In this document: positions 52,376 to 54,315 of the stretch, piece after piece | Numbering within the stretch: the first letter of the stretch is position 1 | How the letters are laid out: each line of letters begins with the position of its first letter | Assembly (NCBI RefSeq): GCF_001687565.2 | Contig: NZ_CP016534.2 | Location: 2,918,501-2,982,500, forward strand | DNA length: 64,000 nt | Direction of reading: 5' to 3' | Origin: Planococcus antarcticus DSM 14505 | Lineage (GTDB): Bacteria; Bacillota; Bacilli; Bacillales_A; Planococcaceae | The notes under the pieces: generated by a model | What the model saw: the letters and a program-made list of their open reading frames with translations, nothing else | The model's database searches: none | What the model was told of the DNA's origin: nothing | Made by a program: the position numbers and the translations under genes

Positions 52376-53368
52376 TCAGCTGAACCACTTATGGTCCGCC
52401 GCTTTTTCGAGTCTGTTCATCAACGCATCGTTAGACTGCATGCCGTTCTCAACTGAAGCCAGAATCAGGTCGGCATCTGTTGAATCGCATTTCCGCAAAC
52501 TGGCATAAAGGGTTTCCATTGAAAGCGGAAAATTAAAGTCGGCTGTCGGGTATTCGGTTTCACTAATGACAGCTACGCGCTTTCCTTTTTTCTGAACGTA
52601 CTCAATCGCTTTTTCGATCAAGCCCGCTTCGTTTTCAATCAAATACAGTGGAGCAGCAGGCGCATAATGCGTATATTTCATTCCCGGCGACTTGGGCACG
52701 CTAGTTTTGTTTTGAGAAGATGATCGGACCGTTCCGATTACTTCCTCAATCTGTTCTTTCGAAATCTTTCCTGGACGCAGAATAACTGGCGGCTCGCAGG
52801 TCGTATCGAGCACTGTCGATTCAATGCCAATTTCTGTAGCTCCCCCGTCCAAAATTAACGGGATTCTGCCGTCCATATCGTGATAGACATGCTCGGCTAA
52901 AGTCGGGCTCGGCTTGCCACTGGTATTGGCACTTGGCGCAGCCAAAGGCAATTGCAGCTTTCGCAATAAATTCAGCGCAACCGGATGATTTGGGACCCGG
53001 ATACCCACTGTCTCCAGGTTTGCCGTAACATTACCGGCAAAGGTTCCCGGTTTTTCCTGCATGATCAACGTTAAGGCACCTGGCCAAAAAGCATCCATGC
53101 ACTGCAGTGCTTTTGCTGAAACCTCCTGCACATGGGTCAAAGCCGCCTTTTTCGAATCCACATGAACAATCAATGGGTTATCTGCCGGCCGCCCTTTTGC
53201 TTCAAAGATTTTGCTGACTGCTTCCGGATTGGTAGCGTCCGCTCCCAGTCCATACACCGTTTCAGTCGGAAAAGCGACAACTTCACCAGCCCGCAGAATT
53301 TCCACAGCCTGTGCATAATATTTTTCTTCATCCACATTTTTATCCACAGAAATAACTTCTGTTTTCAC
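52376..53368 (-). CDS. ywlC: Threonylcarbamoyl-AMP synthase (Sua5/YwlC)
   Basis: 330 residues from GTG 53368 with AGGAG eight bases upstream. YrdC-type domain about 20-205: FPTETVYGLGADATN, KGRPADNPLIVHV, PSANTSGKPSPT; C-terminal Sua5 domain about 230-330. Makes threonylcarbamoyl-AMP for the tRNA t6A37 modification. The start region and its upstream gap carry a cluster of DnaA-box-like sites. spoIIR, ywlA and ywlB, which flank it in B. subtilis, are absent. Confidence 0.92.
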   Translation of the reverse strand: MKTEVISVDKNVDEEKYYAQAVEILRAGEVVAFPTETVYGLGADATNPEAVSKIFEAKGRPADNPLIVHVDSKKAALTHVQEVSAKALQCMDAFWPGALTLIMQEKPGTFAGNVTANLETVGIRVPNHPVALNLLRKLQLPLAAPSANTSGKPSPTLAEHVYHDMDGRIPLILDGGATEIGIESTVLDTTCEPPVILRPGKISKEQIEEVIGTVRSSSQNKTSVPKSPGMKYTHYAPAAPLYLIENEAGLIEKAIEYVQKKGKRVAVISETEYPTADFNFPLSMETLYASLRKCDSTDADLILASVENGMQSNDALMNRLEKAADHKWFS

Positions 53369-53456
53369 ATGAACAACTCCTATTTTTAAAGGTTTTTGTC
53401 CTTCTATCCACAATATGTGGATAAACCCCTGTTAGTTGTGCGCAATTTGTGTATAA
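53310..53456. promoter_or_regulatory. DnaA-box cluster at ywlC
   Basis: Six 9-mers matching TTATCCACA in about 150 bases. Exact: 53340-53348 (plus) and 53416-53424 (minus). One mismatch: 53310-53318 (minus, TGTGCATAA), 53328-53336 (plus, TCATCCACA), 53404-53412 (plus, CTATCCACA), 53448-53456 (minus, TGTGTATAA). The 53404-53424 pair forms a palindrome. A DnaA-binding cluster near ywlC is known in B. subtilis. Confidence 0.75.
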
Positions 53457-53457
53457 C

Positions 53458-54315
53458 TTACGTGATAATCGCAAAAACCATGCGATCGTTTTTGTTGATA
53501 TCTTTTTTACTATAGACTAAAGCATCTGGAAAAGCGTCTTGGAGCATCTTTTGGACTTCCTGCCCTTGTTGATAACCTATTTCAAATCCGATAATGCCTG
53601 GTTTATTGAGCAACTCTGGGAGTTCCAAAGCCATTTTTTCATAAAGAGCCAAGCCTTCTTTATCCGCAAACAATGCACTATGCGGTTCAAAATCACGGAC
53701 ACTGTCCGACAATCCTGGAGCTTCGGCATGAGCAATGTAAGGAGGATTGGACAATATCACATCCCATTTCTCGCCTTTTAACGGTTTGCTTAAATCTCCT
53801 AGACGAATGTCAATTTTTGAATTCAAACGTCTCGCGTTTTCAGCTGCTGTTTGGAGTGCTAGCTGAGAAATGTCAGTTGCAGTGACCCGCGCTTCTGGCA
53901 ATTCGCATTTTATCGTGATAGCGATAATACCGCTGCCCGTTCCTATATCGGCAATAGCTAGCTCTTTTTTTGTCATATAGCGATCGATCAGCTTAAGCGT
54001 TTCTTCTATTAACTCTTCTGTTTCCGGCCTTGGAATCAATACATCCGGATTCACAAGAAATTTTCTTCCATAAAATTCTTCACTGCCGGTCAAATGTTGA
54101 ACGGGAATTCCTTTAGCATGCTGCTCGACTTTTGCCCAAAACTCCCCAAATTGCTGTTCACTAATTTCATCGTGCATCGAAGCAATTAACCCCGAATAAG
54201 TTAAACCCAGTTCATGTTGAAGAAGGATGCGTGCAGCTCCTTCTTCCCGGCCGTTCTCATCTAAATAAGAAGAAGCCCTCTTAAGGGCCTCATAAACATA
54301 CTTAAGCTTGGTCAT
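53458..54315 (-). CDS. prmC: Release factor glutamine methyltransferase PrmC
   Basis: 285 residues. N-terminal helical domain, then a Rossmann methyltransferase: [15 protein letters not shown] (SAM binding, about 121-135) and [12 protein letters not shown] with the NPPY motif (about 186-197). Methylates the Gln of the GGQ motif in release factors. The ATG lies inside the end of prfA (14-base overlap), coupling enzyme and substrate. Confidence 0.94.

Follow-up and report, generated by a model that had tools for sequence, protein, structure and literature searches.

A DnaA-box cluster of conserved geometry at the start of ywlC in Planococcus and other Bacilli

Introduction

Why should the first codons of ywlC, which encodes L-threonylcarbamoyladenylate synthase, be crowded with sites that resemble DnaA boxes? 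The question arises from the window studied here, a 64-kb stretch of Planococcus antarcticus DSM 14505. A sequence-only reading of this window had reported six DnaA-box-like sites at 53310-53456, two of them exact. All six were confirmed at these places. The same reading had likened them to a DnaA-binding locus of Bacillus subtilis, and this match is borne out as well. In an in vitro map of DnaA binding, region 6 of B. subtilis lies upstream of ywlC and downstream of ywlB and contains 9 sites, with a Kd of 0.25 uM for ATP-DnaA and 0.45 uM for the ADP form (PMC4447404). In B. subtilis, ywlC is described as repressed by DnaA; the reporter fragment of that study begins 240 bp before the start codon and ends 73 bp after it (PMC12112137). 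According to reviews, deletion of six B. subtilis clusters leads to early initiation, and the effect is strong only if all six are gone (PMC5295017; PMC13220808).

The ywlC cluster itself is already known in B. subtilis. In the literature examined, whose scope left out Okumura 2012, Ishikawa 2007 and Goranov 2005, we found neither its conservation across Bacilli nor its fixed geometry nor its imprint on the YwlC peptide. The comparative result is therefore probably, not certainly, new, because Okumura 2012 is the likeliest source on conservation.

The ywlC Locus

A box site was defined as a match to TTATCCACA with 0-1 mismatch on either strand. The genes and sites are as follows.

52376..53368, minus strand: ywlC (tsaC), L-threonylcarbamoyladenylate synthase; TIGR00057, 213.8 bits, cut-off 123.2
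53298..53306, plus strand: weak partner box ATTTCCACA with two mismatches, ywlC codons 21-24, inverted pair with 53310-
53310..53318, minus strand: DnaA box TTATGCACA, which fits TTATNCACA, coding module C, ywlC codons 17-20
53328..53336, plus strand: one-mismatch DnaA box TCATCCACA, module C, ywlC codons 11-14, 12 bp from 53340+
53340..53348, plus strand: exact DnaA box TTATCCACA, module C, ywlC codons 7-10 (gene strand T GTG GAT AA)
53404..53424, both strands: core inverted pair of upstream module U in the prmC-ywlC gap, CTATCCACA on the plus strand (53404) and exact TTATCCACA on the minus strand (53416), 3-bp gap
53436..53444, plus strand: weak partner box TTGTGCGCA, forms an inverted pair with 53448- that has two mismatches in all
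53448..53456, minus strand: DnaA box TTATACACA, module U, just past the prmC stop codon
53458..54315, minus strand: prmC, open reading frame directly upstream of ywlC; TIGR03534, 274.6 bits, cut-off 199.1
53567..53575, minus strand: outlying one-mismatch box TTATCAACA inside prmC, cluster membership uncertain
53660..53668, plus strand: outlying one-mismatch box TTATCCGCA inside prmC, cluster membership uncertain

Translation of ywlC probably begins with the GTG at 53368, which has AGGAG ahead of it. In the relatives inspected, the equivalent codon is ATG or GTG. The query used for the searches in relatives and the profile match started one codon upstream of this preferred GTG. With this likely start, three boxes fall within ywlC codons 7-20 and three in the gap, which bears out the earlier remark that the cluster lies partly inside the coding region. 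Because prmC ends at 53458, the gap is 89 bp long. Neither spoIIR nor ywlB lies between the two genes, and the absence of the nearby spoIIR that had been asserted for the genus extends to this whole genome, which gave 0 matches in a search that is positive in B. subtilis. The gap contains no sigma-70-like promoter that we could find, and a model of promoter repression is thus without direct support in this genus. A terminator-like stem-loop is present on the plus strand at 53468-53486, within the 3' end of prmC.

Four of the six sites match TTATNCACA, the published DnaA consensus (PMC4447404). When two mismatches are allowed per pair, 53310- and 53448- become further inverted pairs via the weak boxes 53298+ and 53436+, the latter of which may be a non-binder. 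In this genome ywlC is 794 kb from dnaA, or 21% of the contig.

Rarity of the Cluster in the Window and the Genome

The window contains 27 sites at 0-1 mismatch, whereas 100 shuffled versions average 16.0 and none exceeds 26. Only one group of at least three sites within 300 bp occurs in it, namely the ywlC cluster with the prmC tail. The chance rate given earlier for exact boxes, about once per 130 kb per strand, should read about once per 131 kb for both strands together. Genome-wide (3 contigs, 3.80 Mb), exact boxes number 55 and matches to a reversed-pattern control 19; at one mismatch the counts are 1175 and 766. Clustering was scored genome-wide on exact boxes, and on one-mismatch boxes in the window and the fetched loci. 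Exact boxes no more than 200 bp apart occur at six places with 10 neighbour pairs, where simple arithmetic gives an expectation of about 0.16. These places are both sides of dnaA, ywlC, rlmH (= yydA), 3254652-3254715 and 3363988-3364005. It had been proposed to check whether such clusters are common elsewhere. In the related ywlC loci they are not: of the 1454 control windows (520 bp each) taken elsewhere in these loci, not one had four or more boxes. The locus has the marks of a non-oriC DnaA-box cluster (DBC) of the B. subtilis type: several TTATNCACA-like boxes lie within a few hundred bp beyond chance, and their position at the ywlC start is orthologous (TIGR00057; the B. subtilis region is upstream of ywlC).

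Two of the other places have features of their own. At G000:C1:3363988-3364005 (L004:6988-7005) two exact boxes abut and form a perfect 18-bp palindrome. The gene about 100 bp downstream of it scores below the curated cut-offs of the transporter families that it matches. To our knowledge this palindrome is not among the described cluster sites. At G000:C1:3254619-3254715 (L003:6619-6715) a small cluster (+33-, then -) is found upstream of a 171-aa open reading frame for which the NCBIfam search gave no match. The +33- spacing there equals a spacing in the ywlC upstream module.

The Inverted Pair at oriC, tsaD-ydiF and rlmH

The inverted pair was searched for as TTATNCACA-NNN-TGTGNATAA. At no more than two mismatches, this genome contains 7 sites, and the reversed control has none. 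The ywlC locus accounts for three of them; single sites lie upstream of dnaA, at tsaD-ydiF and at rlmH, and the last, at 2067354, is outside all these loci. A set of 20 other genomes, hand-chosen, mostly single-contig and including six expected to be without the ywlC cluster, contains 44 sites at no more than one mismatch against 2 for the control. Among these, 37 are at oriC, ywlC or tsaD/ydiF (14 at ywlC, 13 at tsaD/ydiF, 10 at oriC), 5 are elsewhere and 2 were not placed (G205:474827 and one in G250). The 10 oriC pairs lie upstream of dnaA at distances of up to about 300 bp, and for five of them the distance runs across a contig end taken as circular. For the 13 sites beside tsaD/ydiF, both genes were found at 10, ydiF only at one (G088) and tsaD only at two (G227, G219), and 12 of the 20 genomes have the pair beside one or both of these genes. 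G199 had no site at this threshold.

The list of B. subtilis DnaA-binding sites given in the sequence-only reading is broadly right. Of the sites looked at in this genome, tsaD (gcp)-ydiF and rlmH (yydA) have clusters, trmE-jag has no more than three boxes, each with one mismatch, and a look around yqeG, the neighbour of sda, found none. The tsaD-ydiF cluster (L223:3622-3789) sits between convergent 3' ends. The family match of tsaD itself (G000:C1:569502-570427, also L223) comes in four consecutive pieces, two of which have internal stops, and these more likely reflect assembly sequence errors than a dead gene.

Distribution Across Bacilli

All 46 genomes of the genus have a match to ywlC, as do all 151 in the family sample, all 150 in the order sample and 150 of 151 in the class sample. 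We fetched 209 loci, from the genus, family and class samples and from 80 among the 419 matches listed in a contig search. The class sample had one genome per genus (73 fetched, 70 anchored; genus g70, in which the gene is split, was skipped). In all, 204 loci could be anchored on the peptide AFPTETVYG, while L116, L128, L137, L150 and L175 had no recognisable anchor. Removal of 5 duplicates left 199 distinct loci; the recoding and peptide counts below used 204. Boxes were counted from -500 to +20 relative to the anchor.

The number of boxes per locus is none in 36, one in 3, two or three in 6 and at least four in 154. The loci fall into two groups, with counts mostly either none or at least four. 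All 38 Planococcus loci, including the one studied here, have at least four boxes, as do 29 of 38 in the rest of the family (a group assigned from kinship labels and names), 36 of 70 class-sample loci outside the family (22 of 38 families) and 51 of 53 other named loci. The supposition that the cluster is conserved in the genus is hence borne out, and the conservation extends to other families of the class. In the class sample, 29 of the 70 loci have 0-1 box.

Several lineages keep ywlC and are without the cluster. These include the sister genus g12 (L043, L044), two Kurthia loci (L073, L075), L077 and L135. The cluster is likewise missing from all three loci scored in family f3, whose genomes measure 5-7 Mb, and from the single scored locus of f26, which has a short ywlC. 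Kurthia L076 and L095 carry the cluster. We considered loss of the cluster by relocation away from oriC, and this was not supported. The ywlC-dnaA distance is about 4-21% in placed cluster-bearing genomes and 2, 3, 6, 20, 23, 29 and 48% in seven cluster-free ones (the chromosome being assumed circular and some contig sizes rounded), and it does not separate the groups. Genome G074 of genus g12 has no ywlC cluster, has ywlC about 20% from dnaA, and keeps the clusters at oriC and tsaD-ydiF. Redundancy among clusters fits the natural absences because these two clusters are retained there.

Geometry of the Two Modules

The boxes form an upstream and a coding module. Distances within each are mostly constant, and the distance between them varies by lineage. 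Arrangements are written here as strand signs with distances in bp. In the 78 named loci, read on the gene strand, the commonest pairs are -+30 (45 loci), +-12 (45) and +-33 (41), followed by -+18 (39), --12 (38) and ++21 (35); the average for all orientation and spacing classes of 9-60 bp is 2.7. Near-variant spacings are rarer, with ++22 in 8 loci, -+19 in 8 and +-11 in 6. The upstream module, +12+21+12-, is complete in 22 of the 199 distinct loci, and its last inverted pair, +12-, is found upstream of ywlC in 93. The coding module, -12-18+, is complete in 64 of 199, and a pair from it occurs in 117. Its boxes stand at -73/-61/-43 in loci of the own family; in many others the positions are -82/-70/-52, which amounts to a three-codon shift. 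Five loci of four families (f13, f28, f35, f36), namely L147, L165, L192, L195 and L208, have an alternative upstream arrangement, +15-9-.

Individual positions recur to different extents. A box is present at -73 (equivalent of 53340+) in 62 of 199 loci, at -61 (53328+) in 38, at -43 (53310-) in 56 and, as a site of 0-1 mismatch, at -31 (the weak 53298+) in 27. L008, L009 and L013 also have a box matching the place of 53448- (-181/-182, +). The place of the outlying 53567- (-300/-301) has a box in 6 of 7 other Planococcus loci inspected (L008, L009, L013, L015, L022 and L025), L040 being the sole exception.

Coding Boxes, Codon Choice and the YwlC Peptide

The last 30 codons before the anchor were randomly recoded with synonymous codons according to each gene's own codon use. 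In Planococcus (L007-L042, 36 loci) 101 boxes were observed against a mean of 16.7 (maximum 30 of 200 runs), and in the 168 other loci, which include five more named Planococcus loci, 279 against a mean of 91 (maximum 123); these simulated maxima, like those that follow, are not P values because related sequences are not independent and the counts were made without a tree. The 36 cluster-bearing class loci have 68 boxes against 21.3 (maximum 32 of 300), and the 29 class loci with none or one box have 0 against 0.4. Box retention in close relatives had been named as a check on the earlier claim; the boxes kept throughout Planococcus exceed what the protein sequence demands, and selection acts here at the level of the DNA.

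Codons +30 to +60 downstream of the anchor served as a control and show little excess in Planococcus (5 boxes against 2.9; 53 of 300 recodings reach 5). In the 36 class loci this stretch has 26 against a mean of 6.6 (maximum 13 of 300). Selection on coding boxes is thus not quite confined to the first 30 codons. This excess, partly on the conserved NPLIVH motif, points to extra boxes within ywlC in other families.

Codon choice and peptide follow the boxes. In the 158 loci with at least four boxes, GTG-GAT encodes 225 of 249 V-D pairs at the N-terminus, compared with 90 of 213 in the remainder of the gene. Of these 158 loci, 90 have the motif V[DN]xx[VI][DN] ('VDxxVD'), as against 0 of the 40 loci that have no more than one box (counted on 204 loci, with 6 of intermediate box number left out). 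Among the 225 coding boxes that are exact or fit TTATNCACA, 218 lie in a single reading phase; L106 and L163 have a box in another phase, which gives Leu-Ser-Thr instead. The loss of boxes upon recoding, the GTG-GAT bias and the tie between motif and cluster together indicate that the boxes thus shape the N-terminal peptide of YwlC.

What the Cluster May Do

We think it probable that the cluster is an old DnaA reservoir on the origin side of the chromosome that also damps ywlC, with DnaA binding being a prediction of this reading. Several DnaA molecules would assemble on the two modules of fixed geometry, an upstream array built on the inverted pair with its 3-bp gap and a direct-plus-inverted coding array over the first ~20 ywlC codons. 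Once the replication fork has copied the locus, the additional binding places would take up free DnaA and re-initiation at oriC would be delayed. DnaA sitting over the gap and the first codons would also lower ywlC (tsaC) transcription. For this Planococcus, we infer DnaA binding, the reservoir effect and ywlC repression from B. subtilis. About 10-fold DnaA overproduction in B. subtilis causes no over-initiation (PMC13220808), which is awkward for a simple sink, and the fixed spacings exceed the needs of a pure sink.

A different weighting makes the cluster chiefly a transcription switch, by which DnaA would repress ywlC/tsaC and tie t6A synthesis to replication status, with initiation effects secondary. 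The repression of ywlC in B. subtilis speaks for it, as does the span of the reporter stretch, which covers the place where relatives carry coding boxes (PMC12112137). The cluster lies over the start codon and, in 40 loci inspected, remains with ywlC although the upstream gene varies between lineages. We nevertheless regard it as unlikely that this is the main role. With no promoter-like site found in the gap, repression here might come from a roadblock within a prmC-ywlC operon or might not occur at all; many lineages that retain ywlC are without the cluster; and the tsaD-ydiF cluster, which has this inverted pair too, lies between convergent 3' ends in this genome and cannot serve as a promoter switch.

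The modules might instead act on the nucleotide state of DnaA, as DARS and datA do, by seating protomers such that ADP is released or ATP hydrolysed. This prediction draws on orientation and spacing that are largely kept across families while the inter-module distance varies, on the E. coli DARS1 and DARS2 cores, which likewise share one fixed geometry, and on a published remark that it is not known whether B. subtilis possesses regulators of the DnaA-ADP/ATP balance (PMC13220808). We judge it distinctly improbable, since +12- and -12-18+ differ from the DARS arrangement, since IHF, datA and DARS are described as absent from B. subtilis (PMC13220808), and since the ATP preference of the ywlC region is modest (PMC4447404). 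A broader conjecture, which we offer tentatively from sequence comparison, would make the ywlC cluster the Bacilli counterpart of DARS/datA and not a passive sink: an old assembly site of fixed geometry that alters DnaA state or oligomerisation and forces the VDxxVD...YxQ residues on the peptide. On this view, the location of the two most widespread non-oriC clusters seen here, at tsaC and at tsaD, may reflect a coupling of DnaA to t6A synthesis.

Chance, or a peptide (VDxNVD...YAQ) that needs box-like codons, is scarcely credible and we reject it: three boxes are coding and nearly all coding boxes share one phase, but synonymous recoding loses them, GTG-GAT is preferred N-terminally over the rest of the gene, cluster-free loci are without the motif, half of the cluster is noncoding and the control windows are empty of such clusters.

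The comparison also has uses of its own. The 154 of 199 loci with at least four boxes reveal which spacings are kept and which vary, and which lineages are naturally without the cluster. The locus also shows clearly how a regulatory DNA element can lie inside the coding sequence of a conserved enzyme and shape the protein encoded there. The inverted pair with its 3-bp gap is a precise element common to oriC and the dispersed clusters, and in B. subtilis it can be altered without protein change.

Comparison With Known Systems

The nearest known system is the B. subtilis ywlC cluster. It lies at the same gene and on the same side, and has a similar number of sites (9 there; 6 clear and 2 weak here). 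Its upstream neighbour is ywlB, whereas here it is prmC across the 89-bp gap; the two were compared by position and site count. In B. zhangzhouensis (L106), the nearest named locus, the coding module is rearranged. The oriC of this genome, like ywlC, has exact boxes and an inverted pair with a 3-bp gap (3765420-3765440); unlike ywlC, it has another box order and is beside dnaA and dnaN. The tsaD-ydiF and rlmH clusters have the same inverted pair as ywlC here and differ from it in their other spacings. Both regions are also DnaA-bound in B. subtilis (PMC4447404).

E. coli offers the more distant comparison. In Bacilli, the two most widespread non-oriC clusters seen here are at tsaC and tsaD, and the E. 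coli datA pair is near tsaE; a literature search for a link between DnaA and t6A synthesis gave nothing relevant. In what we take to be the datA region of E. coli K-12 (L218), the small annotated ORF yjeV contains one +12- box pair, which is about 3 kb away from tsaE. DARS1 is presumably located in the bioD-uvrB gap. DARS2 needs IHF and Fis. For datA, IHF is required (PMC5295017). We placed DARS2 by the deletion primers given in PMC4585315, and the core boxes of DARS1 and DARS2 are both +14-12-. The ywlC cluster was therefore rejected as a DARS on geometry, its arrangements being +12-, +12+21+12- and -12-18+. DARS1, DARS2 and datA resemble ywlC in being small non-oriC groups of DnaA boxes with fixed geometry, but the DARS cores lie in intergenic gaps, whereas the ywlC modules lie at the 5' end of a conserved gene.
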